Made by a program: the position numbers and the translations under genes. Positions 959-60,382 of a stretch of DNA of 64,000 nt are shown one piece after another (position 1 is the stretch's first letter; every line of letters starts with the position of its first letter). The notes under the pieces were generated by a model that was not told where the DNA came from, did no database searches, and saw nothing but the letters and a program-made list of their open reading frames with translations. The stretch is from contig OX328126.1 in the NCBI GenBank assembly GCA_946811695.1, positions 89,538,785 to 89,602,784 of the forward strand, given 5' to 3'. Source of the stretch: Gonocerus acuteangulatus. Its lineage: Eukaryota > Arthropoda > Insecta > Hemiptera > Coreidae.

Positions 959-1900
959 GTGTAATTTTTAAATTAATTTCAACTGTGATGGCAGGCCTTG
1001 AATTACTAGAAATGGACTGTGATTTTGTCCCCTATAGAGTTTACGCTATACCTGGTGATGGTCCATCCGAGGTAATAATATCCCGAACCCTTGCACAGCC
1101 TCCTTACCCATCAACATCCCCAGACAGAACACTTGGTAATGCGCGCAAATATAATGGGTGTTTCCAAATGACATCTTGGAAACATAAATTTTAACGTATA
1201 TTTATTATTGAAAACGAATTTTAACCTGTACTGGATAAACAGCTAATACTCCTAACCTGTACATAATAGGTTACCACCACGTTATATGTTTCTTGACACT
1301 GGTCCGAAGTGTCCCAGTGTCAAGAAATATTATACTTGGATTACTTATTAATTGATGAATAACATACTGTATGACGGGAACCGTGCTATAATAAACTGCA
1401 AAAAATTATATAGTAGCGTTAATTTTGATGTTACATTATTTAACGCAATAAAAAAAAAAACTACTTATCTGCCTTCACGAAGCACGGGTATTCAGCTAGC
1501 TTACAATATAATGAAATGCCTCATCTGTTGAATAATTTACACAGAGTATTAAAATATATATATATATATATATATATGTATATGTATATATAAAGAAATG
1601 GATTTCTCGTTGGAATCCTGAATTGCATTACTGCCCTAACTACGAGGAAGGGAAGAAGTATGAATGAACCCATCGGCCATTGATAAGTACGGCGACGTGC
1701 GTGTGCTTGCTCGGCTTCGTTCAGTAATGACTCTATCATCAAGATCCCTGTGAATGGACAGCTGTCGACAGCTGTATGATTTATATCTCTATGCCCACCT
1801 GTTGGATATCTATGCTGGTCGACATGTTCCAATTACTCCTGTATATCACTCCTAGAAACTCGGGTCATTAAAAGGTCCTGCTCAGGCTACGCTTTTAATT
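959..1900. other. No gene; unassigned sequence with small palindromes
   Basis: No recognisable coding sequence; the 69-codon open stretch at 985-1194 resembles nothing I know. It holds a perfect 13-bp inverted repeat at 1289-1327 (TTTCTTGACACTG and its complement), a (TA)n run at about 1551-1577 and an 18-bp perfect palindrome, ACAGCTGTCGACAGCTGT, at 1758-1775 that contains two E-box (CAGCTG) cores. Confidence 0.5.
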
Positions 1901-3212
1901 GAGCTTGTATTCCGTGACCTTAGCGAAATCCTCAGCAAGGTTGTGTAGGAAAGGTAATAGAATTTCTTTCCTATAAACGATTATTTTTATCAGTTTTAAG
2001 GTATATAACTTTTTTCCAACATCGTTTAGTTGAGCTTGTATTCCGTGACCTTAGCGAAATCCTCAGCAAGGTTGTGTAGGAAAGGTAATAGAATTCCTTT
2101 CCTATAAACGATTATTTTTATCAGTTTTAAGGTATATAACTTTTTTCCACACATCGTTTAGTTGAGCTTGTATTCCGTGACCTTAGCGAAATCCTCAGCA
2201 AGGTTGTGTAGGAAAGGTAATAGAATTTCTTTCCTATAAACGATTATTTTTATCAGTTTTAAGGTATATAACTTTTTTCCACACATCGTTTAGTTGAGCT
2301 TGTATTCCGTGACCTTAGCGAAATCCTCAGCAAACCTTATAGGAAAGGTAATAGAATTTCTTTCCTATAAACGATTATTTTTATCAGTTTTAAGGTATAT
2401 AACTTTTTTCCACACATCGTTTAGTTGAGCTTGTATTCCGTGACCTTAGCGAAATCCTCAGCAAGCCTCATAGGAAAGGTAATAGAATTTCTTTCCTATA
2501 AACGATTATTTTTATCAGTTTTAAGGTATCTAACTTTTTTCCACTCATCGTTTAGTTGAGCTTGTATTCCGTGACCTTAGCGAAATCCTCAGCAAACCTT
2601 ATAGGAAAGGTAATAGAATTTCTTTCCTATATACGATTATTTTTATCAGTTTTAAGGTATATAACTTTTTTCCACACATCGTTTAGTTGAGCTTGTATTC
2701 CGTGACCTTAGCGAAATCCTCAGCAAACCTTATAGGAAAGGTAATAGAATTTCCTGCCCATATACGATTATTTTTATCAGTTTTAAGGTATCTAACTTTT
2801 TTCCATACATCGTTTAGTTGAGCTTGTATTCCGTGACCTTAACGAAATCCTCAGCAAACCTTATAGGAAAGGTAATAGAATTTCCTGCCCATATACGATT
2901 ATTTTTATCAGTTTTAAGGTATCTAACTTTTTTCCATACATCGTTTAGTTGAGCTTGTATTCCGTGACCTTAGCGAAATCCTCAGCAAACCTTATAGGAA
3001 AGGTAATAGAATTTCCTGCCCATATACGATTATTTTTATCAGTTTTAAGGTATCTAACTTTTTTCCATACATCGTTTAGTTGAGCTTGTATTCCGTGACC
3101 TTAGCGAAATCCTCAGCAAGCCTTATAGGAAAGGTAATAGAATTTCCTGCCCATATACGATTATTTTTATCAGTTTTAAGGTATCTAACTTTTTTCCATA
3201 CATCGTTTAGTT
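1901..3212. repeat. 131-bp satellite, ten tandem copies
   Basis: The start word GAGCTTGTATTCCGTGACC recurs at 1901, 2032, 2164, 2296, 2427, 2558, 2689, 2820, 2951 and 3082, and the array breaks off at GAGCTGGTGG (3213). Unit length is 131-132 bp. Units fall in two subtypes. Those up to about 2740 mostly carry TTTCTTTCCTATAAACG; the later ones carry TTTCCTGCCCATATACG and TTCCATACATCG. That polarity suggests amplification of a diverged unit at the 3' side. Units show no long ORF. Confidence 0.95.
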
Positions 3213-3409
3213 GAGCTGGTGGTGACAACGTGTACCTAAATTAATATTTTAGTAGATTCTTTAATAATAAATATTTGTTTCCAGTTTATTTCTCCGTATC
3301 TTTTACTGATTACAGGTGGAGACTAGAAAACAACCAATGTGGACCTGGGCTGAATGATCAATTTTGAAGCCCTAAATAAATAAAATAACTTTTTTCCGTT
3401 TTTTTTAAT
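3213..3409. other. No gene; unassigned spacer
   Basis: AT-rich sequence between the satellite and the next interspersed repeat; nothing recognised. Confidence 0.5.
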
Positions 3410-8027: not shown

Positions 8028-8470
8028 ATAAGACACAAACAGGGGCAGAGGTTAACAGTGTAGATTATAAAATTGTAAGCTATAACATTGAAATAACATT
8101 TTACTTAATAATCAGGAAAATTCTGATTATTAAGTCAAATGTTATATTATGGTCAACTATACTATATTCCTGATACGAATCTAGTATTTTTACCATGAAT
8201 GTTTGCAGCGACAAAACTATGACTTACCTTACAATATGAATGAATTACTCGGCGATGGAAGCAAATATATAGATGAGATATTGAACTACCTAAACAAGAC
8301 CAACTTACTGACCAGTTTATAACATATACTATAGGGGATTAAAAAAAAAAATAAGCATAAACTATATCTTCTTCGTTCAACTTCATTTCATTACTCAAAC
8401 ATTAATATACTTAATATGTAGGTATGTGCATACATACGTGAAAATAATTTACAGAGCATTTGTTATATAT
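8028..8470. other. No gene; contains a small inverted repeat
   Basis: Bases 8094-8142 form a 21-bp inverted repeat with one mismatch (TTAATAATCAG / CTGATTATTAA) around GAAAATT. Part of this sequence resembles 11340-11440 (TTGTAAGC-ATAA-ATTGAAATA). No coding sequence is seen. Confidence 0.55.
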
Positions 8471-10789: not shown

Positions 10790-10807
10790 CTATTCTTAGC
10801 TCTTATT

Positions 10808-10995
10808 TTTTTTTTTTTTTTTTACGGCGCATCTACAACTTGGCCATTAGCGCCGGGCTATCTACAGGTTGCCACCCTTTTATAATGCCAACATTACGTG
10901 GTCGGTCACCCATTCAGGTATTGACCACGCCCGACGTTGCTTAACTTCGGTGATCTACGGGAACCGGTGTATTCTACGTGGCCATGGCCGTTGGC
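10808..10995 (-). mobile_element. 5S rRNA-derived SINE, best copy
   Basis: The minus strand begins GCCAACGGCCATGGCCACGT, continues through GATCACCGAAGTTAAGCAAC (box A), GGGCGTGGTC, and CCTGAATGGGTGACCGACCA (intermediate element/box C) to TGTTGGC. That is most of 5S rRNA with a short rearranged stretch near base 20. The tail is GGTGGCAACCTGTAGATAGC-CCGGCGCTAATGGCC-AGATGCGCCGTA plus an A-run of ~20. The internal Pol III promoter appears intact. The reading is not a functional 5S gene, because the tail follows the 5S end directly. Confidence 0.9.
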
Positions 10996-13935: not shown

Positions 13936-14356
13936 ATTGTGATTAAATTCTCCGCCGGATTTGAGCACCAGATCTAAACTTTTTTGCTTTCCATTTTTTT
14001 TTTTTTCGAAAAAAAAGTTTGAGATATCGCCTTCGTATTTTTTTTATAGATTCCCCTTGTCAAATTCTAAAAAAAATATACGCAAAATATAAATAATTAC
14101 AAAAACAATTAACGCAAAATTGAATACACTATAAATATTTTAACTCGATTTTTACAAACTACCGATAATTACATGTTATATTTAATTAACTCATTTTTTA
14201 ACACTTTTTCAATGCAATGGTTTAAAGTAACGGACAACACAGATCTGTGTTAGCTGAAGTAGCTTACAACCTTTTTTCGAATCTGCGTAGAAAAGTGAAA
14301 TAAATAAATCACCGATTGCCAGATTTTTGGGAACCAAGTTGATATTTCCAGAAAAA
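13936..14356. other. No gene; AT-rich flank of the 30-bp array
   Basis: No ORF of its own. It contains an A/T hairpin-like stretch TTTTTTTTCGAAAAAAAAG at about 14000. Confidence 0.5.
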
Positions 14357-16006
14357 ATGATAGATTCCATGTGCAGATTATTGCCAATGATAGATTCCAT
14401 GTACAGATTATTGCCAATGATAGATTCCATGTACAGATTATTGCCAATGATAGATTCCATGTATAGATTGTTGCCAATGATAGATTCCATGTATAGATTA
14501 TTGCCAATGATAGATTCCATGTATAGATTATTGCCAATGATAGATTCCATGTATAGATTATTGCCAATGATAGATTCCATGTACAGATTATGGCCAATGA
14601 TAGATTCCATGTATAGATTATTGCCAATGTTAGATTCCATGTATAGATTATTGCCAATGATAGATTCCATGTATAGATTATTGCCAATGATAGATTCCAT
14701 GTATAGCTTATTGCCAATGATAGATTCCATGTATAGATTATTGCCAATGATAGATTCCATGTATAGATTATTGCCAATGATAGATTCCATGTACAGATTA
14801 TCGCCAATGATAGATTCCATGTATAGATTATTGCCAATGATAGATTCCATGTACACATTATTGCCAATGATAGATTCCATGTATAGATTATTGCCAATGA
14901 TAGATTCCATGTATAGATTATTGCCAATGATAGATTCCATGTACAGATTATTGCCAATGATAGATTCCATGTATAGATTATTGCCAATGATAGATTCCAT
15001 GTACACATTATTGCCAATGATAGATTCCATGTTTAGATTATTGCCAATGATAGATTCCATGTATAGATTATTGCCAATGATAGATTCCATGTATAGATTA
15101 TTGCCAATGATAGATTCCATGTACAGATTATTGCCAATGATAGATTCCATGTACAGATTATTGCCAATGATAGATTCCATGTACACATTATTGCCAATGA
15201 TAGATTCCATGTATAGATTATTGCCAATGATAGATTCCATGTATAGATTATTACCAATGATAGATTTCATGTACAGATTATGGCCAATGATAGATTCCAT
15301 GTACAGATTATGGCCAATGATAGATTCCATGTATAGATTATTGCCAATGATAGATTCCATGTATAGATTATTACCAATGATAGATTCCATGTACAGATTA
15401 TGGCCAATGATAGATTCCATGTATAGATTATTGCCAATGATAGATTCCATGTACAGATTATGGCCAATGATAGATTCCATGTATAGATTATTGCCAATGA
15501 TAGATTCCATGTATAGATTATTGCCAATGATAGATTCCATGTACAGATTATTGCCAATGATAGATTCCATGTATAGATTATTGCCAATGATAGATTCCAT
15601 GTATAGATTATTGCCAATGATAGATTCCATGTACAGATTATTGCCAATGATAGATTCCATGTACAGATTATTGCCAATGATAGATTCCATGTACAGATTA
15701 TTGCCAATGATAGATTCCATGTATAGATTATTGCCAATGATAGATTCCATGTATAGATTATTACCAATGATAGATTCCATGTACAGATTATGGCCAATGA
15801 TAGATTCCATGTATAGATTATTGCCAATGATAGATTCCATGTACAGATTATGGCCAATGATAGATTCCATGTATAGATTATTGCCAATGATAGATTCCAT
15901 GTACAGATTATTGCCAATGATAGATTCCATGTATAGATTATTGCCAATGATAGATTCCATGTACAGATTATTGCCAATGATAGATTCCATGTATAGATTA
16001 TTGCCA
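14357..16006. repeat. 30-bp minisatellite, 55 exact-length copies
   Basis: The unit is ATGATAGATTCCATGTATAG + ATTATTGCCA. The array is 1650 bp, exactly 55 units with no length change. The main variable site is the C/T in GTAYAG; others are TTG/TGG/TAC before CCA and scattered single changes. Because 30 is divisible by 3 and the unit has few stops, long ORFs appear in three frames: plus IDSMYRLLPM, minus GNNLYMESII, minus AIIYTWNLSL. I take these as by-products of periodicity. No signal peptide, promoter or splice context supports translation. Confidence 0.95.
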
Positions 16007-17213
16007 ATCTGCACTGCCAACAACCCACCCATATGGGTAAATGCAGAATAATTCAAATAATAATAAATGAACAATCTTATTTTGAGATATTCTATAGGAA
16101 TAACATATTTTCGTAACTTTTGTTGTTATGTTACCTTCTGTAAAAAAAAAAAAAAGCTTCTTCCATGCTATAAATATGACTGCGTTCCTCCTGGCATCTT
16201 GCGACCATCTTCCAACTAGCTCAATATCTTGAATATCTCACGATCGCGAGATTCAGAAAAGAAAACCCCAAGCCGAGAAGCTTTAGAACCTCCTTAAGTG
16301 TTTTCCACCTTTTAATTGACTCCTTAGAAACCTTTGCGCCAAAGAGAAGCACGCGCGGCGTGGATTTCTCGCGCCTTTTAACCGTCTACAATAGCATTGT
16401 CCACATGTCGACATTGAACCCTAGGCATCTAATGACAGCTGGCTAATTCTACAGACCACTTCATAGAGGACTTTCTTCGTTTCCTTATCCGTCCAAAAGA
16501 GTCTTGACCAATCCTGGAGAACGGCTACTGTCCGATGATAACGGTTAAGTCCTGATGATGCCTCCTTAGTCGGCCATTACCTGATGATGCGGCCTTTATC
16601 AACACATTTTCTCTTCAAATCCTTCTCTATTTTCTTCAAATGGCTTTTCTAGCAGGATTACCATTTCTCATATGGTAACTCTCCCTATTTTAAGCATAAA
16701 ATGGATAATTCACACTTCATAGCTTTGTTAGAAGTCTTTCAATTCGCTAACATCAAACGGAATGCTTCGCTTTAAAAAGGACAAACTAATATAATCCTTT
16801 ACTCAATATTTTTTAACAAATTCCAAGCTAAGAGTAAAGGTTACAACCAATCAACAACAAATCGATTAAATGTTACTTAAGGATGTTATTGTATTTACAT
16901 ATTTTTTTCTTATTCTTAAATCGCAATTGTTGATGAAATTCTGTGCGTTTTAAGTGATTTGAAAGCATTTAAACAGGTTTTTTACTTGAAATATTTTTAC
17001 ATATTTCGTCAAACACCCATATTACATATTCTGTCATAAATACATATTTTGATATTCTTTTTATTTTGTAATGGAAAAAAGAAAGGATAAACCAAGAAAG
17101 GAAAGAATGCTTGATCCATTGAATCTAGATCACTGTGTCTTTTCTAATTGCAAGAAACAAAGGTGGCTGGCTGCCATGCTTCCCCGGCGGTAATGGTCTA
17201 TATAAATGTACAT
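16007..17213. other. No gene recognised; apparently unique sequence
   Basis: About 1.2 kb with moderate complexity, without an ORF, SINE or inverted-repeat structure that I can identify. 16150-16560 is somewhat richer in GC and could be host unique sequence. Confidence 0.45.
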
Positions 17214-17573
17214 AAAAAAAAAAAAAAAAAAAAAATCAGTCCCGTAACAGGCCACGAGGGACCTGAGGGGCAGATACTATAGAGGTATCTGATTTATGAC
17301 CTTACGGCACACTAGGGAGATAGTATGGTCAGTACTATGCTCCGGCCGCCTGATTTTCGCCTTGGCCGCTTCGACTGCTAGAGTCATTAGCACCCAAGGT
17401 TCCCATTATTAAATTAATTAAAGGCTGGGTCGGCCTAGGGACGGTCAGGGAGGCCGAATCTAACCCATGAACGAAGACACTAGAAGAAAAAATCTTTAGT
17501 GCTTGCTCGGGATTTGAACTCAGGTCTCCAGCTTATTAATCCAGTGCTCTACCACTGAGCTAACCTCGCCCCC
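17214..17573 (-). mobile_element. tRNA(Ile-like)-derived SINE, full length, poly(T)-type 3' end
   Basis: The minus strand runs from GGGGGCGAGGTTAGCTCAGT to CCTGTTACGGGACTGATTTT, followed by ~20 T (seen as A on plus). The A box, B box (GAGTTCAAATCCCGAGCAAG) and body blocks are well preserved. This copy defines the family best. The T-run at the 3' end is a Pol III terminator-like end rather than the poly(A) usual for LINE1-type SINEs. Confidence 0.9.
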
Positions 17574-22672: not shown

Positions 22673-22938
22673 TCATCAAAATTATTAGGCACTTCCCATG
22701 ATGCTAGGGACTTGAAATTTTGCATGAAGATAGATATGAAGACGTTATTAAAGGAAAAAATCGAAAAATCGCGAAAAGTTGTGTTTGACTCCGCTTCCGG
22801 GGCGGGGCGTGCCAGTTTTGTACTTCCTTCGGAAACCCATCATTCCGTCCGAAACCCATGATGTGGGGTATCAAATGAATTTTCTCGGCATGAAGAACCT
22901 ATATTTGATGTTTTAAGAAACAATTAGACTCATATAGG

Positions 22939-23450
22939 CTCGGTAAAAATCTTATACCAGCTGTCTGTCTGTATGTTTGTTCCTCTTACAAATCCGTACC
23001 GTTTGACCGATTTTGACCAAACCTGGGACACAAATGGGTCTTGATACGGGGAGAATCATAAGCTAGGTTAAATTGTCTATCACCTGTCTGTCTGTTTGTT
23101 CCTTATACAAATACACACCGTTTGACCGATTTTGACAAAATTTGACACACATGTCGGTCATTCTCCGGTTAGTTTCATAGGCCAGTCAAAATCGTCTATC
23201 AGCTGTCTGTCTGCATGTTTGTTCCTTACACAAATTCACTCCATTTGACCGATTTTGACCAAACTTGGCACACAGGTAGGCCTTGGTCCGGGGAATGCAC
23301 TAGGCTAGGTAAAAAAGGTCTTTCAGCTGTCTGTCTGTATGTTTGTTCCTTATACAAATTCACACCGTTTGGCCTATTTTGACCAAACTTGGCACGCAGG
23401 TAGGTCTTGATACGGGAGTGTCATATTACCTATGACGTTTTCTACTTTTG
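22939..23450 (-). repeat. ~122-bp tandem module, four units (minus orientation)
   Basis: Each unit contains CAGCTGTCTGTCTGTATGTT, TTCCTTATACAAAT, CACACCGTTTGACCGATTTT and TTGGCACACAGGTAGG. The word TTCCT...ACAAA recurs at about 22980, 23099, 23222 and 23346. Its complement is the unit of the arrays at 51860-52520 and 59440-60340, so one module is used in both orientations within different elements. Confidence 0.8.
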
Positions 23451-27022: not shown

Positions 27023-27247
27023 GGGGCGAGGTTAGCTCAGTGGTAGAGCACTGGACTAATAAGTTGGAGGACCTGAGTTCAAATCCCGGACAAGCACTAA
27101 AGTTCTTTCTTCTAGTGTCTTCGTTCATGGGTTGAATTCGGCCTCCCTGGCCGTCCCAAGGCCACCCCAGCCTTTAATTAATTTATTAATGGGTACCAGG
27201 GTGCTAGAGACTCTAACAGTCGAAGCAGCAAAGGGGAAAAACAGTTA
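27023..27247 (+). mobile_element. tRNA(Ile-like)-derived SINE, 3'-truncated
   Basis: Excellent head (GGGGCGAGGTTAGCTCAGTG; GAGTTCAAATCCCGGACAAG) and body to GTCGAAGCAGCAAAGGGGAA. The final ~100 bases with the GGGACTGATTTT end are missing. Confidence 0.85.
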
Positions 27248-28263: not shown

Positions 28264-28388
28264 TTTCAGTTAAGTGGCCAGTACCTGAATGGGCGACCGA
28301 CCTCGTGCTGTTGGCATAATAATAGGATGGCAACCTGTAGATAGTCCGGCACTAATAGCCAAATAGTTGATGCGCCGTTAAAAACGAA
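28264..28388 (+). mobile_element. 5S rRNA-derived SINE, 5'-truncated
   Basis: 5S-like CAGTACCTGAATGGGCGACC-GACCTCGTGCTGTTGGC, then tail GGATGGCAACCTGTAGATAG...CTAATAGCC...TGATGCGCCGT and an A-rich end. Confidence 0.8.
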
Positions 28389-28501
28389 AAAATAAAATAT
28401 AATAAATAAATAAAAAAATAATGAGTAACAGGATCGTCCGTGCTGTGGAATGAGCATCCTCAGACAAGCAAGCTTAGAAAAGTCAAACCCACAACAAAGC
28501 T

Positions 28502-28647
28502 ATGGAAGAGTGGAGAAGGAGGAAACCGAAGGGAGGAAGTGGAATCGTGTTATTAACACGATTTCGAATAGGCCATAGTCATATGACACATAGCCATCTC
28601 ATTAAAAGAGAACCTCCACCTCTATCTGATTCATGCTCTTATATTTT
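28502..28647 (+). pseudogene. Non-LTR retrotransposon ORF2, segment just before the C-terminal knuckle
   Basis: The frame reads SGIVLLTRFRIGHSHMTHSH then LIKREPPPLSDSC-SYI and runs directly into the 57-bp repeat array. The motif (V)LxRxRIGHxxxTHxxLxxxxPPxxxxC is the conserved segment between RNase H and the C-terminal zinc knuckle of I/Jockey-type ORF2. The intact copy in this window (55864-58218, minus) has VVLCRLRIGHCLLSHEHLFL at the same place. Upstream RT and RNase H are absent, so this is a 5'-truncated copy. Confidence 0.8.
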
Positions 28648-30201
28648 AACGATAAGCCATATAATAGAGGAAAGCCCGGAACATGAAAACAGGTTCCAAG
28701 TTTTAACGATAAGCCATATAATAGAGGAAAGCCCGGAACATGAAACCAGATTCCAAGTTTTAACGATAAGCCATATAATAGAGGTAAGCCCGGAACATGA
28801 AAACAGGTTCCAAGTTTTAACGATAAGCCATATAATAGAGGAAAGCCCGGAACATGAAAACAGGTTCCAAGTTTTAACGATAAGCCATATAATAGAGGAA
28901 AGCCCGGAACATGAAAACAGGTTCCAAGTTTTAACGATAAGCCATATAATAGAGGAAAGCCCGGAACATGAAAACAGGTTCCAAGTTTTAACGATAAGCC
29001 ATATAATAGAGGAAAGCCCGGAACATGAAAACAGATTCCAAGTTTTAACGATAAGCCATATAATAGAGGAAAGCCCGGAACATGAAAACAGATTCCAAGT
29101 TTTAACGATAAGCCATATAATAGAGGAAAGCCCGGAACATGAAAACAGATTCCAAGTTTTAACGATAAGCCATATAATAGAGGAAAGCCCGGAACATGAA
29201 AACAGATTCCAAGTTTTAACGATAAGCCATATAATAGAGGAAAGCCCGGAACATGAAAACAGATTCCAAGTTTTAACGATAAGCCATATAATAGAGGAAA
29301 GCCCGGAACATGAAAACAGATTCCAAGTTTTAACGATAAGCCATATAATAGAGGAAAGCCCGGAACATGAAAACAGATTCCAAGTTTTAACGATAAGCCA
29401 TATAATAGAGGAAAGCCCGGAACATGAAAACAGATTCCAAGTTTTAACGATAAGCCATATAATAGAGGAAAGCCCGGAACATGAAAACAGATTCCAAGTT
29501 TTAACGATAAGCCATATAATAGAGGTAAGCCCGGAACATGAAAACAGGTTCCAAGTTTTAACGATAAGCCATATAATAGAGGAAAGCCCGGAACATGAAA
29601 ACAGATTCCAAGTTTTAACGATAAGCCATATAATAGAGGTAAGCCCGGAACATGAAAACAGGTTCCAAGTTTTAACGATAAGCCATATAATAGAGGAAAG
29701 CCCGGAACATGAAAACAGATTCCAAGTTTTAACGATAAGCCATATAATAGAGGTAAGCCCGGAACATGAAAACAGATTCCAAGTTTTAACGATAAGCCAT
29801 ATAATAGAGGAATGCCCGGAACATGAAAACAGATTCCAAGTTTTAACGATAAGCCATATAATAGAGGAAAGCCCGGAACATGAAAACAGATTCCAAGTTT
29901 TAACGATAAGCCATATAATAGAGGAATGCCCGGAACATGAAAACAGATTCCAAGTTTTAACGATAAGCCATATAATAGAGGTAAGCCCGGAACATGAAAC
30001 CAGATTCCAAGTTTTAACGATAAGCCATATAATAGAGGTAAGCCCGGAACATGAAAACAGGTTCCAAGTTTTAACGATAAGCCATATAATAGAGGAAAGC
30101 CCGGAACATGAAAACAGATTCCAAGTTTTAACGATAAGCCATATAATAGAGGAATGCCCGGAACATGAAAACAGATTCCAAGTTTTAACGATAAGCCATA
30201 T
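28648..30201 (+). repeat. 57-bp coding minisatellite, block 1 (27 full units)
   Basis: Unit starts fall every 57 bp from 28648 to 30187 (27.0 periods). The plus-strand frame gives LTISHIIEESPEHENRFQV per unit (EC, VS and ES variants). It aligns with WTVEHFLISCRNYTSLRKS in the intact ORF2 of this window: T-(V/I)-x-H-(F/I)-x-x-x-C/S, then a basic helix. The His and the last Cys of the knuckle are kept in some units; the Cys is Ser in most. The frame is open through block 1 and ends in the MITE. The minus-strand frame (546 codons) is a periodicity artefact. Confidence 0.95.
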
Positions 30202-30451
30202 CGTCGATACAAAAGCAAACTAAGGAATATGAAAATCAACACTTTTCAGTGTGGAAAAGTATTTATTCATAACTTTTTTTTGGACAGTCAAATATTCGGT
30301 AGATTTGACCTTTTGATAGTGGAATACTTTCCCTTTAATAGAGTGAAGTCAGATTGAAGAATTTGCTGTAAATAAGTCCAGCAGAAATTATTAAAGATGG
30401 ACAATGAAAGATGCATTTTTTCATATTCGTTAGTTTGCTTTTGTATCGACG
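30202..30451. mobile_element. 250-bp MITE inserted in the 57-bp array, copy 1
   Basis: The ends CGTCGATACAAAAGCAAACT and AGTTTGCTTTTGTATCGACG are inverted; the inverted repeat continues for ~34 bp with one mismatch. The unit word CC-ATAT-AATAG is interrupted with ATAT duplicated on both sides (30198-30201, 30452-30455). So this is a 4-bp target duplication, or alternatively an AT-ended TIR. No ORF of its own. Confidence 0.8.
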
Positions 30452-32165
30452 ATATAATAGAGGAATGCCCGGAACATGAAAACAGATTCCAAGTTTTAAC
30501 GATAAGCCATATAATAGAGGTAAGCCCGGAACATGAAAACAGGTTCCAAGTTTTAACGATAAGCCATATAATAGAGGTAAGCCCGGAACATGAAAACAGG
30601 TTCCAAGTTTTAACGATAAGCCATATAATAGAGGAAAGCCCGGAACATGAAAACAGATTCCAAGTTTTAACGATAAGCCATATAATAGAGGAATGCCCGG
30701 AACATGAAAACAGATTCCAAGTTTTAACGATAAGCCATATAATAGAGGTAAGCCCGGAACATGAAAACAGATTCCAAGTTTTAACGATAAGCCATATAAT
30801 AGAGGTAAGCCCGGAACATGAAAACAGGTTCCAAGTTTTAACGATAAGCCATATAATAGAGGTAAGCCCGGAACATGAAAACAGGTTCCAAGTTTTAACG
30901 ATAAGCCATATAAAAGAGGAATGCCCGGAACATGAAACCAGATTCCAAGTTTTAATGATAAGCCATATAATAGAGGTAAGCCCGGAACATGAAAACAGGT
31001 TCCAAGTTTTAACGATAAGCCATATAATAGAGGAAAGCCCGGAACATGAAAACAGATTCCAAGTTTTAACGATAAGCCATATAATAGAGGAATGCCCGGA
31101 ACATGAAAACAGATTCCAAGTTTTAACGATAAGCCATATAATAGAGGTAAGCCCGGAACATGAAAACAGATTCCAAGTTTTAACGATAAGCCATATAATA
31201 GAGGTAAGCCCGGAACATGAAAACAGGTTCCAAGTTTTAACGATAAGCCATATAATAGAGGTAAGCCCGGAACATGAAAACAGGTTCCAAGTTTTAACGA
31301 TAAGCCATATAAAAGAGGAATGCCCGGAACATGAAACCAGATTCCAAGTTTTAATGATAAGCCATATAATAGAGGTAAGCCCGGAACATGAAAACAGGTT
31401 CCAAGTTTTAACGATAAGCCATATAATAGAGGTAAGCCCGGAACATGAAAACAGGTTCTAAGTTTTAACGATAAGCCATATAAAAGAGGAATGCCCGGAA
31501 CATGAAACCAGATTCCAAGTTTTAATGATAAGCCATATAATAGAGGTAAGCCCGGAACATGAAAACAGGTTCCAAGTTTTAACGATAAGCCATATAAAAG
31601 AGGAATGCCCGGAACATGAAACCAGATTCCAAGTTTTAATGATAAGCCATATAATAGAGGTAAGCCCGGAACATGAAAACAGGTTCCAAGTTTTAACGAT
31701 AAGCCATATAATAGAGATAAGCCCGGAACATGAAAACAGGTTCCAAGTTTTAACGATAAGCCATATAATAGAGATAAGCCCGGAACACGAAAACAGGTTC
31801 CAAGTTTTAATGATAAGCCATATAATAGAGATAAGCCCGGAACATGAAACCAGATTCCAAGTTTTAATGATAAGCCATATAATAGAGGTAAGCCCGGAAC
31901 ATGAAAACAGGTTCCAAGTTTTAACGATAAGCCATATAATAGAGATAAGCCCGGAACATGAAAACAGGTTCCAAGTTTTAACGATAAGCCATATAATAGA
32001 GGAAAGCCCGGAACATGAAACCAGGTTCCAAGTTTTAACGATAAGCCATATAATAGAGGAAAGCCCGGAACATGAAAACAGATTCCAAGTTTTAACGATA
32101 AGCCATATAATAGAGGAATGCCCGGAACATGAAAACAGATTCCAAGTTTTAACGATAAGCCATAT
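30452..32165 (+). repeat. 57-bp coding minisatellite, block 2 (29 full units)
   Basis: Full units run from 30498 to 32150 (29.0 periods) with part-units at both edges next to the MITEs. The reading frame is open except at 31460, where TTCCAAG has become TTCTAAG (stop). Several units carry IKEECPEHETRFQVLM, a variant seen only here and in block 3. Confidence 0.95.
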
Positions 32166-32415
32166 CGTCGATACAAAAGCAAACTAAGGAATATGAAAAT
32201 CAACACTTTTCAGTGTGGAAAAGTATTTATTCATAACTTTTTTTTGGACAGTCAAATATTCGGTAGATTTGACCTTTTGATAGTGGAATACTTTCCCTTT
32301 AATAGAGTGAAGTCAGATTGAAGAATTTGCCGTAAATAAGTCCAGCAGAAATTATTAAAGATGGACAATGAAAGATGCATTTTTTCATATTCGTTAGTTT
32401 GCTTTTGTATCGACG
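32166..32415. mobile_element. 250-bp MITE, copy 2 (duplicated with the array)
   Basis: Same length as copy 1 and almost identical (TTTGCTGTAAAT vs TTTGCCGTAAAT). It lies exactly 1964 bp downstream and has the same insertion point within the unit. Segmental duplication explains this better than a second insertion. Confidence 0.85.
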
Positions 32416-33878
32416 ATATAATAGAGGAATGCCCGGAACATGAAAACAGATTCCAAGTTTTAACGATAAGCCATATAATAGAGGTAAGCCCGGAACATGA
32501 AAACAGGTTCCAAGTTTTAACGATAAGCCATATAATAGAGGTAAGCCCGGAACATGAAAACAGGTTCCAAGTTTTAACGATAAGCCATATAATAGAGGAA
32601 AGCCCGGAACATGAAAACAGATTCCAAGTTTTAACGATAAGCCATATAATAGAGGAATGCCCGGAACATGAAAACAGATTCCAAGTTTTAACGATAAGCC
32701 ATATAATAGAGGTAAGCCCGGAACATGAAAACAGATTCCAAGTTTTAACGATAAGCCATATAATAGAGGTAAGCCCGGAACATGAAAACAGGTTCCAAGT
32801 TTTAACGATAAGCCATATAATAGAGGTAAGCCCGGAACATGAAAACAGGTTCCAAGTTTTAACGATAAGCCATATAAAAGAGGAATGCCCGGAACATGAA
32901 ACCAGATTCCAAGTTTTAATGATAAGCCATATAATAGAGGTAAGCCCGGAACATGAAAACAGGTTCCAAGTTTTAACGATAAGCCATATAATAGAGGAAA
33001 GCCCGGAACATGAAAACAGATTCCAAGTTTTAACGATAAGCCATATAATAGAGGAATGCCCGGAACATGAAAACAGATTCCAAGTTTTAACGATAAGCCA
33101 TATAATAGAGGTAAGCCCGGAACATGAAAACAGATTCCAAGTTTTAACGATAAGCCATATAATAGAGGTAAGCCCGGAACATGAAAACAGGTTCCAAGTT
33201 TTAACGATAAGCCATATAATAGAGGTAAGCCCGGAACATGAAACCAGATTCCAAGTTTTAATGATAAGCCATATAATAGAGGTAAGCCCGGAACATGAAA
33301 ACAGGTTCCAAGTTTTAACGATTAGCCATATAATAGAGGTAAGCCCGGAACATGAAACCAGATTCCAAGTTTTAACGATAAGCCATATAATAGAGGTAAG
33401 CCCGGAACATGAAACCAGATTCCAAGTTTTAACGATAAGCCATATAATAGAGGAAAGCCCGGAACATGAAAACAGATTCCAAGTTTTAACGATAAGCCAT
33501 ATAATAGAGGTAAGCCCGGAACATGAAACCAGATTCCAAGATTTAACGATAAGCCATATAATAGAGGAAAGCCCGGAACATGAAAACAGATTCCAAGTTT
33601 TAACGATAAGCCATATAATAGAGGAAAGCCCGGAACATGAAAACAGGTTCCAAGTTTTAACGATAAGCCATATAATAGAGGTAAGCCCGGAACATGAAAA
33701 CAGGTTCCAAGTTTTAACGATAAGCCATATAATAGAGGTAAGCCCGGAACATGAAACCAGATTCCAAGTTTTAACGATAAGCCATATAATAGAGGTAAGC
33801 CCGGAACATGAAACCAGATTCCAAGTTTTAACGATAAGCCATATAATAGAGGAATGCCCGGAACATGAAACCAGATTC
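32416..33878 (+). repeat. 57-bp coding minisatellite, block 3 (24 full units plus part)
   Basis: Full units run from 32462 to 33829, then a part-unit ends GAAACCAGATTC-AGACAG. The order of variant units in the first ~15 units matches block 2 unit for unit, then diverges. The 519-codon frame is uninterrupted from within the MITE to 33918. Confidence 0.95.
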
Positions 33879-33990
33879 AGACAGCTAAATATACCCCGGA
33901 ATGTGCACACAGGCTCTTAAAAATTGTCAGCATGCTATGGACAATGTGATCAAACTCCTAAAAATCTGTGGTATATATAAACTGCTGTAA
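33879..33990 (+). pseudogene. Non-LTR retrotransposon ORF2, extreme C-terminus (frameshifted)
   Basis: Immediately after the array the frame continues FRQLNIPRNVHTGS and stops; one frame over it resumes LKNCQHAMDNVIKLLKICGI-YKLL and a stop codon (TAA ~33988). The final pattern NVIKLLKxxxxYxxx matches DIQKLFIFLKNSNMYSKF, the last residues of the intact ORF2. So the array lies between two pieces of one C-terminal domain. Confidence 0.7.
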
Positions 33991-39135: not shown

Positions 39136-39851
39136 TTCTATTATAGTCCTCAAGGTCACTTAAATATCACTAAGTGTTCCTATAAAAAATGCAAAAATAC
39201 GATAATCTGGCTTCATAGAACTATAAAACTACGTTAATCAATTCTGGGGCTGCTAACATTCAATGCTTTCTTTTTAATCTGCGCTTATTATTCACTATGT
39301 CTACTAAAGGTTTCATACTCCTCCAATTTAAGGAAAACTTGTCCGTTTAATAACCTTTAATTACCTAATAAGGAATTGGACAACCTTTAATTACCTAATA
39401 AGGAATTGGACAGTTGGTTGGTTATTAAGGCTGAAATGCCTCTTGATACTTGAATAAATGTTTAGAAAAATTATTTTTTCTTCCAAATAAGTAGGTTATT
39501 TCTCTTTTCATTTCTTTAAGCGAATGAGATTACCAGAAATGGAGCTCAAATAAATTATTAGAATATTTTTTTTAAGTTTTTAGGAATTCACAAATTTTAT
39601 TTAATAATTTTACTATATTTTGTTATCTACTCCCCAAGGCCCCACCATTAAGGTCAGTGAAACTCCTTTAGATTTCTGCATTTCATTTTCATCTCGTTAA
39701 TGTCCCAAGTCGTTAGAATTGCATTTTCAGAGTTTTACCGTTAATATTTTCAAAGATGGAAACTCCCGAATCAGTGCGTTTACTCCCATAGGTTTGAATC
39801 GATTCGCCATACAGTTCGGCAACTTTTACGAGTTTTTAAAATATAATTTCT
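39136..39851. other. No gene; unassigned
   Basis: AACCTTTAATTACCTAATAA-GGAATTGGACA is tandemly duplicated at about 39351-39412. Otherwise nothing recognised. Confidence 0.45.
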
Positions 39852-40080
39852 CATGAATACCTGATGACCAAAACTGAAAAACCAACCTGTACAATATGTA
39901 ACAGTGACCTAACCGTACAACATATCTTAACTGACTGTCAATCACGACTTAATTTGGACATTCCTCACGACATGACAGAACTCCTTGGAGATGGCTGCCC
40001 TCATATTGACAAGATACACCTAAAAGACACCAACATATTTGACAAAATATAAAATAAAATAAAATAGAAAGAACATCAAG
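39852..40080 (+). pseudogene. Non-LTR retrotransposon ORF2 C-terminus and 3' tail
   Basis: HEYLMTKTEKPTCTICNSDL then TVQHILTDCQSRLNLDIPHD, ending NIFDKI and TAA at ~40049. CTIC...H-x4-C is a complete C-x2-C-x7-H-x4-C knuckle. It ends with (AAAAT)n-type sequence ATAAAATAAAATAAAATAG, a retrotransposon tail. 5'-truncated; no RT. Same lineage as 45091-45358. Confidence 0.8.
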
Positions 40081-44715: not shown

Positions 44716-45090
44716 GAATTCATTCGGTCTATTGGCGAAACGTGTAAATACCGCGTGTCCAGAAAACCAATTTCTTCACCACATGTCACATGTTTATGTA
44801 TTAATTTATTATATTTGCTTCGCTGGTCATCATCGTACAGGAATTCATTCGGACTATTGGCGAAACGTGTAAATACAGCGTGTCCAGAAAACCAATTTCT
44901 TCACCACATGTCACATGTTTATGTATTAATTTATTATATTTGCTTCGCTGGTCATCATCGTACAGGAATTCATTCGGACTATTGGCGAAACGTGTAAATA
45001 CAGCGTGTCCAGAAAACCAATTTCTTCACCATATGTCACATGTTTATTTATTAATTTATTATATTTACTTCGCTGGTCATCATCGTACAG
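44716..45090 (+). repeat. 125-bp tandem repeat, three copies
   Basis: GAATTCATTCGG starts at 44716, 44841 and 44966, with a fourth part-start at 45091; spacing is exactly 125 bp. Units differ at only a few bases, so amplification is recent. It abuts the 5' edge of a retrotransposon remnant. Confidence 0.95.
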
Positions 45091-45358
45091 GAATTCACTC
45101 CGAGAAGAAGTAGTCCTTGCGAGACTAAGAATCGGCCATACACGCATAACCCATGAGTACCTAATGACAAAGACTGACTAACCAAAATTTAAACATTGTA
45201 ACACAGACCTTACTGTAAAACATATATTAACAGACTGTCGGTTACGGACTAACTTGGACATTCCACATGACCTGACAGATATACTTTCTGAAGGCAGCCA
45301 ACATTTTGATACAATACTGACCTATTTGAAAAACAATAACATATTCCACAAAATATAG
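45091..45358 (+). pseudogene. Non-LTR retrotransposon ORF2 C-terminus, with stop
   Basis: Reads VVLARLRIGHTRITHEYLMT-KTD-stop-PKFKHCNTDLTVKHILTDC-RLRTNLDIPHDLTDIL...NIFHKI and TAG (~45357). The lineage is that of 39852-40080. The first knuckle Cys is Phe, and an in-frame stop follows KTD. A dead 5'-truncated copy whose upstream flank is the 125-bp repeat. Confidence 0.8.
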
Positions 45359-51658: not shown

Positions 51659-52552
51659 ACTAGCCGTTACCCGGCGTGCCATGCTACACCTACTGTCTGC
51701 ATATAGAAAAGCCTAAATAAATTAGAAACCAAATAAGTATTATTAAAATCTAATAACACGAATCTGTAACTGTTATGAAACCGTGGCCTCCCAACAGAGA
51801 GTCCTAGACGACTTTCACCTAACCTATAACGCCCCCTGTATCAAGACATACCAAGTTTCCTAAAAATTGGTCTAACGGTGTGGATTTGTATAAGCGACAA
51901 ACATACAGACAAACAGCTGGTAGATTTTTTTGACCAAGCCTACGGCACCTGTAAGATCTACCTGTGTACCGAGTTTAGTCAAAATCGGAAGAACGGTGTG
52001 GATTTGTATAAGGGACAAGCATACAGACAGCTAAAAGACGTTTTTGACTTAGCCTACGACACTCCCCAGATTAAGATCTACATGTGTTCCGAGTTTAGTC
52101 AAAATCGGACGAACGGTGTGGATTTGTATAAGGGACAAACATACAGACAGACAGCTGGTAGACGTTTTTGACTTAGCCTACGACACTCCTCAGATTAAGA
52201 TCCACCTGTGTACCGAGTTTAGTCAAAATCGGACGAACGGTGTGGATTTGTATAAGGGACAAGTATACAGACAGACAGCTAAAAGACGTTTTTGACTTAG
52301 CCTACGACACTCCCCAGATTAAGATCTACATGTGTACCGAGTTTAGTCAAAATCGGACGAACGGTGTGTATTTGTATAAGGGACAAACATACAGACAGAC
52401 AGCTGGTAGATTTTTTTGACCTAGCCTAGGCGATTTCTCGTATCAAGACCTATTTTTATTCCAAGTTTGGTCAAACGGTGTAGATTTGTATAAGGCACAA
52501 ACAAACAGAAAAACAGACAGACAGACACGTGATTTTTATATATATAGATTTA
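51659..52552 (+). mobile_element. CTAGCCGTTACCCGGC element with ~121-bp tandem module
   Basis: Starts ACTAGCCGTTACCCGGCGTG and ends CACGTGATTTTTATATATAT-AGATTT. The inside carries about five units, each with CGAGTTTAGTCAAAATCGGA, GAACGGTGTGGATTTGTATA, AGGGACAAACATACAGACAG and TTTTTGACTTAGCCTACGAC. Same design as 59253-60382. No coding frame persists across units. Confidence 0.75.
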
Positions 52553-55538: not shown

Positions 55539-58230
55539 TTTATTTATTTATTTATTTATTTAATTTTCATTTTGCCTCTATCCTGTAGGATCATTGGCGA
55601 TTGCATGGTAAGAAAATAAATAAAAAACATATTTTATACTAAAGTGGTAATGAACATACAATAATAATATATGAAAATGTGATAATTGTAAGCAGTGAAT
55701 TGATGTATGAATAAATGAAAATAATATTACATAAATAACTTATAATAATAATTATGATAAATGATTCAAATATAAGTTAAGAAATGTTAATAATACATGA
55801 TTATAAATAATTACAATTTTAGTGGATTTGTTTTTTAAAACAAATAATAATAAAAAATAAAAATTAAAATTTTGAATACATATTTGAATTTTTTAAAAAA
55901 ATAAAAAGTTTTTGTATGTCTTCTTCTTTGTCGCCAAGAATTTTTGCAAGAGAAGATCCAATTCCAATGGATTTTCTCAAGGAAGTGTAGTTTCTGCATG
56001 ATATCAAGAAATGCTCCACCGTCCATTGTTGTCCTATATCACAGCTGCATGTAGGTGGATGTAGGTTAAGGAAGAGATGTTCATGGCTGAGGAGACAGTG
56101 GCCGATTCTTAATCTGCACAGGACAACTTCTTCTCTCCTTGAAGAACGTTCACTTGTCTGCCATCGCTTCGGAATGTCCTTTATTTTCCTGAGTCCTTTC
56201 TCCTCCATTTCAAGCCACTTATTGGTCCAGAGTCTGTAGAGGTTTTCTTTTACCAGGGTTTTCCAGTCTAAATAGGTTATTCTATCAATTACTTCATCAT
56301 TGGCTGATAATGATGATGCAAGTTTGTCGACTTCTTCATTACCTCTTATGCCGCTGTGTGATGGAACCCACGTGAATGCCACCGTTTGATTTGCCTTCTT
56401 TGCTTTATTTAAAAGATACTTGCATGAACGAATAAGACCTTCAGTGGATTCCCTTTCTTGCAGGGTACTTAAGACACTCAATGAGTCTGATATTATGACA
56501 GTTTTTGGAATTTTATTAGTCGTTACATAATTGATCGCTTCATAGATAGCAACTGCTTCAGCAGTAAACGAGCTGCATTCCATTCGTAGAGCAGTGACTT
56601 TTTGAGTTGATCTTGTTATAAAGGCAGATCTTACTCCATTTGAAGACTTGGATCCATCTGTGTAGATTGGTTCATAGCCCAAATAGTTTGTAAGGTGTGC
56701 TAAAAACTCAGCAATGATATTTGGTGGGTTCTCTTTTTTATTTAAATTTAGCATTTCTTTGTCAATATGTACTTTATCAGTGTCCCACGGAGGCTGTACT
56801 GTTTGATTGGATTGCCAAAACTTAGGAAGTTCTAATTCTAGGGAATTTAAAGTTTTCCTCATCCTACAACAGAAACTATTACTTGCCGGTAGTTGTTGAG
56901 TTTTTATGGTTTCACAAAGAAGTCTATGTGTTCCTCTTGAAAGAAGTTTGCCTAGGAAACAAAGTCCCAAGAAATATCTCCTATTGTATAGAGAAGGTTC
57001 TGCACATTCCATTTGAAGACTTTCGATCGGTGATGTTCGGAATGCTCCGGTACTTATCCTCATTGCTTCATTATGTACAACATCGAGCATCCGGAGAGCT
57101 TTTTGATTACCGGAGGAATAGATGAACGACCCGTAATCGAGTTCCGATCTTATGAGGACTCTGTATATTCGTAAAAGGGTTGCTCGATCGGCACCCCAAT
57201 TGGAATGCGCTAAACACTTTAGAAGAAAAAGCTTTTTTGAACATTTGTTTCTCAAATCTTTGATGTGCTCGATCCAGTTTAACTTCTTGTCGAAGGTCAA
57301 ACCCAAGAACTTCATTTTGTCCACATAATGGATTGGCTGATCGAATATACATATTGGTGGATTGTAGTGGCAAACTTTTCTGCAGAAATGTAGAGCTCGG
57401 GTTTTCGTAGTTGAGAAAGAGAAGCCTGTTTGTCGGGTCCATCTTTCAAATCGGAATATAGTTTCTTGGAGCCTCCATTTTATGAATTCCAATGAAGAGG
57501 ATCTCACAAAAATAACTAGATCATCTGCGTACAATGTATATCCGACAGGTCGGCTTATTAATTCTGATACAGAATTGATAGCTATCAGAAAGAGAGTTAC
57601 ACTTAGTGTTGACCCTTGGGGTATTCCATTTTCTTGAATGAATTTCGCAGAGAGTCGATTTTCTACTCGAACTTGGAAGGTTCGGTTTGTCAAGAATTCT
57701 TTCAAGAAGGACCAGATTCTGCCTTTAATACCCCACTTCAGAAGAGTTTGTAGCACCAGGTATCTCCAAATTCGGTCGTAAGCCTTTTCAATGTCCATGA
57801 AAACGGCAATTAGGTGTTCATTTTTCGAAAATGCTATTTGTATTTCGTTTTCAAGGGTTACTAAATGATCTAAAGTTGAATGCCCTTTTCTGAAGCCACA
57901 TTGATTAGCACATATCAACCCGCGATTTTCAAGGAGATAGTAAAGCCTTCTATTTATTATCTTTTCTAAAATTTTTGATGCACAATTTATGAGGGAAATC
58001 GGGCGAAAGTCTTCCGGCCTTGAGCTAAATAGTTTTTTGGGAATAGGAATGACAATCGAATTTTTCCATGAATCTGGAAAGACCTTTTCTTTCCAAATTG
58101 TATTATAAATTGATAATAAGAATATTTTTCCTTCTTTGGGGAGTTTTTTAATCAAAATATAAGGAATTCGATCAGGCAAATTGTCAAAAAATGTGGAATA
58201 TAATTTTGTTACTTTCAAGCACTTTGTATG
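55539..58230 (-). mobile_element. I/R1-type non-LTR retrotransposon, 5'-truncated
   Basis: The minus strand carries the ORF2 fragment (55864-58218), a ~300-bp AT-rich 3'UTR and an (AAAT)n tail (TTTATTTATTTATTTATTTA on plus at 55540-55562). The 5' end is lost within the N-terminal part of RT, so no ORF1 or endonuclease is present. An obvious target duplication was not found (a short ATGAAG occurs on both sides). It is the youngest-looking coding element in the window because the frame is intact. Confidence 0.85.
55864..58218 (-). CDS. Reverse transcriptase / RNase H polyprotein ORF2 (partial)
   Basis: 784 uninterrupted codons. The first codon is TTG, not ATG, with a stop 8 codons upstream, so the frame is simply truncated. 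RT spans residues ~15-270: FRPISL (71-76), FMDIEKAYDR with catalytic Asp ~142, GIPQGS (198-203) and YADD (230-233). RNase H lies at ~515-640: YTDGS (Asp ~521), Glu ~554, SDS (Asp ~578) and WVPSHSGIRGNEEVD (His ~621, Asp ~631). RLRIGH follows at ~702-707, then the C-terminal knuckle Cys724, Cys726, His736, Cys741. All catalytic residues are present. It would normally copy element RNA at a nicked target site, but without the N-terminal endonuclease this copy is not autonomous. RNase H places it in the I/R1 group rather than core Jockey. Confidence 0.92.
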   Translation of the reverse strand: MKVTKLYSTFFDNLPDRIPYILIKKLPKEGKIFLLSIYNTIWKEKVFPDSWKNSIVIPIPKKLFSSRPEDFRPISLINCASKILEKIINRRLYYLLENRGLICANQCGFRKGHSTLDHLVTLENEIQIAFSKNEHLIAVFMDIEKAYDRIWRYLVLQTLLKWGIKGRIWSFLKEFLTNRTFQVRVENRLSAKFIQENGIPQGSTLSVTLFLIAINSVSELISRPVGYTLYADDLVIFVRSSSLEFIKWRLQETIFRFERWTRQTGFSFSTTKTRALHFCRKVCHYNPPICIFDQPIHYVDKMKFLGLTFDKKLNWIEHIKDLRNKCSKKLFLLKCLAHSNWGADRATLLRIYRVLIRSELDYGSFIYSSGNQKALRMLDVVHNEAMRISTGAFRTSPIESLQMECAEPSLYNRRYFLGLCFLGKLLSRGTHRLLCETIKTQQLPASNSFCCRMRKTLNSLELELPKFWQSNQTVQPPWDTDKVHIDKEMLNLNKKENPPNIIAEFLAHLTNYLGYEPIYTDGSKSSNGVRSAFITRSTQKVTALRMECSSFTAEAVAIYEAINYVTTNKIPKTVIISDSLSVLSTLQERESTEGLIRSCKYLLNKAKKANQTVAFTWVPSHSGIRGNEEVDKLASSLSANDEVIDRITYLDWKTLVKENLYRLWTNKWLEMEEKGLRKIKDIPKRWQTSERSSRREEVVLCRLRIGHCLLSHEHLFLNLHPPTCSCDIGQQWTVEHFLISCRNYTSLRKSIGIGSSLAKILGDKEEDIQKLFIFLKNSNMYSKF

Positions 58231-58568
58231 AAGAAATTATGGATTACTGATGTTTTATTTGCTAAAGTGTGTCAATCCATTGTCCAGTCCGGAAGCAATA
58301 AAAAATTAACTGGAAGAAATTGTTGGAAAAATTGTTTATTTGAGACATATGTGACAGTTTGCGTTTTCCAAATGTTCATTGCTTTTGTTATTTTTTTCAA
58401 TCTTTACTAACATCAAACTGACAGAGGATACTTAGGTTTTATAAACTTAACAATCAATTATGCTTTGAATTTATTTTATTTTTTATGAAGTTCGTTATTT
58501 TGCCATTTTCCAATGACTCATGTAGAATAATGATAACTGAAAATCCGACGAATGTTTTCGTAAATTCC
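58231..58568. other. No gene; unassigned AT-rich sequence
   Basis: Nothing recognised; small frames only. Confidence 0.45.
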
Positions 58569-59252: not shown

Positions 59253-60382
59253 AACTAGCTGTTACCCGGCGTGACATGCTACACCTACTTTATGCATATA
59301 GAAAAGCCTAAAAAAATTAGAAACCAAATAACTATTATTAAAATCTAATAACACGAATCTGTAACTGTTTTCAACCCGTTACCTCACAAATGTGAGTCCT
59401 AGACGACTTTGACCTAACCTATAACCCCCCCCCCGTATCAAGACATACATGTATACCAAGTTTAGTGAAAATCGGACGAACGGTGTGGATTTGTATAAGG
59501 GACAAATATACAGACAGACAGCTGGTAGACGTTTTTGACTTAGCCTGCGACACTTCCCAAATTAAGATCTATATGTGTACCGAGTTTAGTCAAAATCGGA
59601 CGAACAGTGTGGATTTGTATAAGGTACAAACATACGGACAGACAGCTAGAAGACGTTTTTGACTTAGCCTACGACACTCCCCAGATTAAGATCTACATGT
59701 TTACCGAGTTTAGTCAAAATCGGTCGAACGGTGTGGATTTATATAAGGGACAAACATAAAGACAGACAGCTGGTAGATTTTTTTGACCTAGCTTAGGAGA
59801 TTTCCCGTATCAAGACCTACCTTTGTGCCAAGTTTGGTCAAAATAGGTCAAACGGTGTGGATTTGTATAAGGAACAAACATACAGACAGACAGTTATTAG
59901 ACCTTATTGACTTAGCCTACGACACTCCCTAGATTAAGATCTACATGTGTACCGAGTTTAGTCAAAATCGGACGAACGGTGTGGATTTGTATAAGGGACA
60001 AACATACGGACAGACAGCTGGGAGACGTTTTTGACTTAGCCTACGACAGTCCCCAGATTAAGATCTACATGTCTACCGAGTTTAGTAAAAATCGGACGAA
60101 CGGTGTGGAGACGGTACCGAGTTTATTCAAAATCGGACGAACGGTGTGGAGACGGTACCGAGTTTATTCAAAATCGGACGAACGATGTGGATTTGTATAA
60201 GGGACAAAACATACAGACAGACAGCTGGTAGATTTTTTTTGACCTAGCCTAGGAGATTTCCCGTATCAAGACCTACCTTTGTGCCAAGTTTGGTCAAAAT
60301 CGGTCAAACGGTGTGGATTTGTATAAGAAACAAACAAACAGACAGAAAAACAAACAGACACGTGATTTTTATATATATAGAT
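59253..60382 (+). mobile_element. CTAGCTGTTACCCGGC element with ~121-bp tandem module, longer copy
   Basis: Starts ACTAGCTGTTACCCGGCGTG-ACATGCTACACC and ends GACACGTGATTTTTATATAT-ATAGATT. Inside are about seven module units (CGAGTTTAGTCAAAATCGGA, GGACAAACATACAGACAGAC). A short 37-bp triplication GAACGGTGTGGAGACGGTAC-CGAGTTTATTC lies at ~60095-60180. Same family as 51659-52552. Confidence 0.75.

Follow-up and report, generated by a model that had tools for sequence, protein, structure and literature searches.

For many satellites, hardly any record of how they arose survives. Among those whose source has been described, PROsat of Phodopus roborovskii and Pvc 20 of Phoca vitulina are listed as LINE-1 ORF2-derived satellites (PMC9659126), and the chicken HinfI (SCR1) satellite is listed as originating from the CR1 3' UTR together with part of ORF2 (PMC9659126; HinfI also in PMC6947457). 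PMC6947457 also covers minisatellites that arose within copies of Alu, B1 or LTR elements, for which slippage or unequal exchange is proposed, and the Haber and Louis model, as cited in the same source, uses flanking direct repeats of 5-10 bp. Since LINE ORF2 satellites and minisatellites born in transposable elements are both on record, the array of Gonocerus acuteangulatus analyzed here belongs to a kind that is already known, and apparently illustrates, in clean form, one of the recognised routes to a new repeat array.

To the extent that these sources describe them, PROsat and Pvc 20 resemble the present array in having a tandem monomer that comes from, or resembles, LINE ORF2, whereas the array here has an I-like source of 53 nt, a single known locus and both single-copy source flanks still in place. 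The likeness to HinfI, as that satellite is listed, lies in the tandem amplification of a 3' LINE part with partial ORF2; however, its source combines the 3' UTR with part of ORF2, while only ~17 ORF2 codons, from another clade, were amplified here. The minisatellites of Alu, B1 and LTR elements, as outlined in PMC6947457, share with it a short unit expanded within a transposable element copy. In contrast to the Haber and Louis model in its cited form, the array here lacks a direct repeat longer than 3 bases and has a 4-nt join. What stands out is that the source flanks, the join and the growth steps are all legible at one locus. A literature search by general terms found no published report of this array. 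We consider it very probable that a decayed I-like ORF2 tail underwent a 53-nt duplication with a CAAG join and grew to a minisatellite of ~83 units, with an insert landing in it and blocks of it being duplicated.

The window, that is, the whole 64-kb stretch of DNA analyzed, was searched with Tandem Repeats Finder, and a 57-bp tandem array was located at 28644-33878. The array and its surroundings comprise the following features.

28443..28541, plus strand: upstream ORF2 remnant (SKLRKVKPTTKLWKSGEGGNRREEV), in another frame than the RIGH segment, from tblastn and profile
28547..28643, plus strand: left flank, an ORF2 tail with the RFRIGH motif and the first half of the knuckle, where Ser replaces the first Cys of CxxC, up to the array edge, from profile and tblastn
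28644..30200, plus strand: array block 1, units 1-27 and the first part of unit 28, phase 1
30201..30452, no strand assigned: MITE-like insert of 252 bp with ~35-bp terminal inverted repeats and a TA target duplication
30453..32164, plus strand: array block 2, the rest of unit 28, units 29-57 and the first part of unit 58, phase 0
32165..32416, no strand assigned: second copy of the 252-bp insert, 1,964 bp further on and differing at one base
32417..33878, plus strand: array block 3, the rest of unit 58, units 59-82 and the 53-bp last unit (33826-33878), phase 2
33879..33920, plus strand: right flank RQLNIPRNVHTGS followed by a stop, the collinear continuation of ORF2, from profile and the gapless joined alignment
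33901..33990, plus strand: likely remnant of the ORF2 C-terminal helix (MCTQALKNCQHAMDNVIKLLKICGIYKLL, then a stop) in another frame, from hmm 125-151 and its position in order

An anchor scan identified 83 unit starts, corresponding to 80 full units, two units split by inserts and one terminal unit of 53 bp, in agreement with the ~80 full units plus part-units counted in the preliminary description. The spacing between starts was constant at 57 save for two gaps of 311, each containing 254 extra bases. The 80 full units form a homogeneous head-to-tail array with a mean pairwise identity of 96.4% and at most seven differences, and fall into 16 sequence types. As had been described from the letters, the unit peptide is LTISHIIEE(S/C)PEHENRFQV with variants, and RFRIGHSHMTHSH, LNIPRN and VIKLLKICGIYKLL are all found flanking the array, although LNIPRN and VIKLLKICGIYKLL lie in different frames. 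The earlier observation that most units have Ser instead of the knuckle Cys was likewise borne out, with Ser (AGC) in 67 and Cys (TGC) in 13 of the full units. RNA folding of three units was unremarkable (z -1.07), and Rfam gave no match within the array. The exact unit pattern had 0 matches in a viral contig collection and a genome contig collection, both of which are unlikely to include the host. Elsewhere in the window, a 131-bp array of 10 copies (97% match) occupies 1894-3217, and three arrays with a period of ~124 bp lie at 22934-23416, 51849-52428 and 59446-60109; for those at 51849 and 59446, the printed parts of the consensus are alike apart from phase.

Other repeats were recorded around the array. 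A 5S rRNA-like sequence was found at 10886-10995 on the minus strand (Rfam RF00001, 50.9 bits), and a repeat overlapping it (10804-10928) is ~84-85% identical to 425-535 and to 28274-28399, just left of the array. Given this identity, the left neighbour of the array is probably a 5S-derived SINE. Sequences resembling tRNA occur at 17500-17569 and 27031-27091 (Rfam, just above threshold), and a third at 34570-34657 matches both at ~74% (BLAST); all three are possibly tRNA-derived SINEs.

To trace the source of the unit, the ORF2 present in the window (55864-58236, minus strand; RT and RNase H) served as a reference. At least 1198 significant relatives of this protein were obtained among 7970 candidates scored, and none in the viral contig collection; its last 131 residues, used as a protein query, returned 130 candidates, none significant. 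A profile of the ORF2 tail (152 positions) was built from 89 sequences, namely the window ORF2 and 88 RIGH-bearing tails from the 120 relatives listed, the other 32 being dropped when the RIGH pattern was not found in their last 180 residues. Such a selection biases the profile towards RIGH-bearing tails; tblastn with all 121 database proteins, made without any choice by motif, agreed with it. The profile was scanned in six frames over the whole window, and tblastn was run with 122 proteins (the 121 from the database plus the window ORF2) at E up to 0.01.

The left flank and first units matched the profile at 28460-28735, running into unit 2 (E 3e-17), and the last units and right flank matched at 33807-33908 (hmm 93-126, E 0.0018). 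An upstream piece in another frame matched at 28404-28541 (hmm 23-67, E 2.8e-4). By tblastn, the left flank region was matched by 120 of the 122 ORF2-type proteins (best E 5.6e-14), often as two pieces; in the best case these were 28443-28541 and 28547-28711, contiguous in the query and in different frames. A frameshift between 28541 and 28547 separates the SKLRKVKPTTKLWKSGEGGNRREEV piece from the RIGH segment. The right end of the array was matched by two of the 122 proteins (best E 0.001). Between 22 and 28.4 kb no tblastn match was obtained with these proteins at E up to 0.01, the matches beginning at ~28443, near the C-terminus of the query; RT and RNase H are therefore missing here, and the copy is a remnant, not an element.

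When the left flank, the last unit and the right flank were joined, 89 residues aligned to 89 profile positions (hmm 38-126) with no gap and a score of 70.7 bits. The first third of this alignment precedes the frameshift and fits better in another frame, so it was discounted and the gapless match counts from about hmm 68; both edges of the array fall within the part that counts. The C-x2-C..H-x4-C knuckle is present in 85 of the 89 profile sequences, and the joined remnant preserves the succession of RIGH, knuckle and likely final helix, with the first knuckle Cys changed to Ser and the helix frame-shifted and weak. The final helix segment scored only 1.2 bits at hmm 125-151 and 5.5 bits alone, where 1 of 500 shuffles was as good.

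Shuffle controls were applied to the 60-residue core of the joined alignment, which scored 63.8 bits against the ORF2 tail profile. Shuffling the 17-residue unit within the core gave 0 of 500 as good (best 54.2), as did shuffling the left flank (best 28.3) and the right flank (best 63.0, a margin of only 0.8 bits). For the unit alone the score was 12.1 bits, while its 500 shuffles reached at most 6.8. Shuffles for which no score was reported (90 of 500 for the unit, 39 of 500 for the tail) were entered as -10. The right flank scored -2.8 bits alone and added only ~5 bits to the joined score, and since it lies below zero by itself and its shuffles come within 0.8 bits, it is taken as supporting evidence only. 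That an unrelated satellite resembles an ORF2 tail by chance might be entertained on account of the shortness of the unit, with its 17 original residues. However, the joined score and that of the unit by itself were each beyond the reach of all 500 unit shuffles, and the same protein runs on gaplessly in both flanks, which leaves this explanation with a negligible probability.

The proposal that the repeat originated from the C-terminal tail of a retrotransposon ORF2 is thus upheld by the profile, tblastn and shuffles: the two flanks and the unit line up with such a tail gaplessly and in the proper order, and the proposal thereby survived the refutation test set for it beforehand, a failure of the flanks to match the retrotransposon family of the unit. 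The assignment to an I/Jockey-type element can be narrowed. A non-LTR ORF2 tail is indeed present, but to our knowledge Jockey proper lacks RNase H, and because the window ORF2 carries this domain, the source is better read as I-like.

The profile also detected ORF2 tails at 45071-45355 (E 3e-29), at 39846-40049 (E 1.4e-12), weakly at 8206-8316 (E 0.002), and at 55870-56310 in the window ORF2 itself. All of these are free of the 57-bp array, which speaks against growth in a mobile parent, where a retrotransposon family would carry the array internally and the locus would be one inserted copy. No other copy of the array's own ORF2 subfamily was seen, a circumstance in keeping with such a parent; nevertheless, such a parent would require more than 5 kb of repeats to have been copied into a remnant with a shifted frame and neither RT nor RNase H, which is less simple. 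We regard a mobile parent as very unlikely and favour amplification at the locus. As a separate observation, a 125-bp array (3.1 copies, 44716-45097) adjoins the ORF2 tail remnant at 45071-45355 and represents a second tandem array beside an ORF2 relic in the window.

The breakpoints of the array are visible on both sides. The first unit begins at TTTTAACG, directly from the collinear left flank, and the last unit runs from TTTTAACG to AGATTC, 53 nt, and passes directly into the collinear right flank. The four nucleotides preceding the 83 unit starts are CAAG in 81 cases, TAAG in one (after unit 45) and the flank's TATA in one (the first). Accordingly, of the earlier statement that a 19-codon segment was amplified in place, the amplification in place stands and the 19 original codons do not: with a last unit of 53 nt and CAAG before 81 of 83 starts, the preferred reading of the unit is 53 nt of ORF2 to which a 4-nt CAAG join was added, the whole being amplified in a copy reduced to its ORF2 tail. 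Chance alone, with a probability of one in three, may have made the resulting period a multiple of three. At the breakpoints (offsets 47 to 61) direct repeats do not exceed 3 bases, and the short-direct-repeat model of the first duplication therefore finds no visible trace here. In the proposed history, a decayed copy of an I-like non-LTR retrotransposon, reduced to the ORF2 tail, would have gained a 53-nt tandem duplication with CAAG at the join, possibly as filler. The enzymatic route, and whether the frameshifts came before or after the amplification, are matters of inference.

Expansion of the 57-bp repeat by unequal exchange or replication slippage would then have produced the minisatellite of ~83 units. 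The order of unit types records how it grew. Units 26-41 reappear 1,964 bp further along as units 56-71 (16 positions, one of them insert-split), and the seven-unit block DFECCHI recurs. In 5000 shuffles of the order, no shuffle attained the values seen at lags 5, 7 and 30 (p 0.0002). The signal was weaker at lags 1 (p 0.015) and 4 (p 0.01), and between lags 2 and 40 the 35 others failed p 0.02. The longest repeated block in 300 order shuffles was six. The repeated 7-unit and ~30-unit blocks show that the array grew by block duplication, a pattern that unequal exchange or slippage in blocks would be expected to leave. Furthermore, the knuckle Cys occurs in 85 of 89 profile sequences and Ser in 67 of 80 units, and hence Ser would be the derived state, spread through the array by homogenisation.

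Two MITE-like inserts provide an internal time mark. Their inverted ends match at 34 of 35 positions (35 of 36 by BLAST) and the target duplication is TA, although a 4-bp ATAT with slightly shorter ends fits the letters equally well. The insert landed before the duplication that carries its second copy. We propose that an inverted-repeat transposon of this type landed in one unit, that a stretch of ~30 units carrying it was later duplicated, and that 7-unit blocks were duplicated as well. It might instead be suspected that the assembly duplicated some of the array, in particular the stretch containing the second insert, by placing two alleles in tandem, since a single base separates the two insert copies and 16 unit positions in a row, including the insert-split one, are identical. 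However, the offset spans 30 positions, of which the identical block covers only 16, and the remaining order of units differs. We hold such an artefact to be unlikely, and it would affect the copy number rather than the origin of the array. Duplication of the insert-bearing stretch in the genome remains the preferred reading.

Each insert adds 254 bp to the spacing of the array, and as 254 is not a multiple of three, the units fall into three phases (1, 0 and 2 mod 3 along the array). The plus-strand frame closes inside each insert, and in unit 45 (31406-31462) a CAA to TAA change introduces a stop. There are four plus-strand open stretches of at least 120 aa (28478-30223, 30376-31461, 31462-32187 and 32340-33920). 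The description of almost all units as open in one plus-strand frame consequently does not hold, in view of the three phases, the stop in unit 45 and the four open stretches.

To assess what the open frame means, the unit was compared with other repeats. It is open in three of six frames, two of them on the minus strand, and when its bases were shuffled (20,000 shuffles), ~25% of the sequences had three or more open frames and 8% had none. A 30-bp array at 14356-16008 (55 copies, 95% match, longest stop-free stretch 638 codons) is a good control for open frames in arrays, and its unit is open in four of six frames. Seven other arrays were tested: three have a period divisible by three and show 4, 1 and 0 open frames, and the remaining four show none. 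The open frames of other arrays and of shuffled units make an open frame weak evidence here. Substitutions among the 80 units comprise 11 types, three synonymous, seven nonsynonymous and one stop. The synonymous share expected without constraint is 17.5-20.6%, so that three of 11 is unremarkable (P of three or more, 0.30 to 0.40) at a low power of the comparison; these 11 types in 80 units gave no sign of purifying selection on the unit frame.

Protein searches with the array were also conducted. Pfam reported six families on a 581-aa repeat stretch (Rep-A_N, Trypsin and others), two of them above the curated whole-protein cut-off; because no single stretch passes in any family, the whole-protein scores are read as sums over repeats and these candidates were rejected. 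The first open stretch of the array matched a single one of the 7995 candidates scored: P0121, a metagenome protein of 524 aa that has RNase H and a tail of this type, at 52% identity over 8% of the query.

An ATG at 28502 starts a 573-codon frame that extends to 30223 and includes 27 full copies of the 19-aa unit. The existence of this frame, in which units 1-27 are open, is what could recommend the idea of a selected repeat protein, for instance the 573-aa product of 28502 to 30223. Against it, the two minus-strand unit frames are open too, at least three open frames occur in ~25% of composition-kept shuffles, and the unit of the 30-bp array at 14356 does better still. Moreover, seven of 11 substitution types are nonsynonymous and one is a stop (again at low power), later array blocks lie in other phases, and the flanking ORF2 is frameshifted upstream and apparently downstream as well. 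A selected protein is in our judgement highly improbable. We assign a similarly slight chance to a weaker version, in which units 1-27 would be transcribed and translated from the ATG at 28502 into a 573-aa protein of 19-aa repeats derived from a transposon knuckle, born by satellite expansion and not yet under detectable constraint. The sequence gives no sign that the array makes a useful protein. Whether the frame is kept by selection or by periodicity had been left open, and the three phases, the stop, the spectrum free of any sign of constraint and the three open frames of six, set against ~25% of shuffles, favour periodicity; the frame is open mainly because 57 is a multiple of three and the source frame had no stop.

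These results caution against taking a long open frame as coding when it lies in an array with a period divisible by three. The source, the 4-nt join, the breakpoints on both sides and the unit variants are all readable at one locus, as is an insert that was later duplicated. The locus could therefore serve to test models in which an initial tandem duplication arises in the absence of direct repeats and expands block by block.
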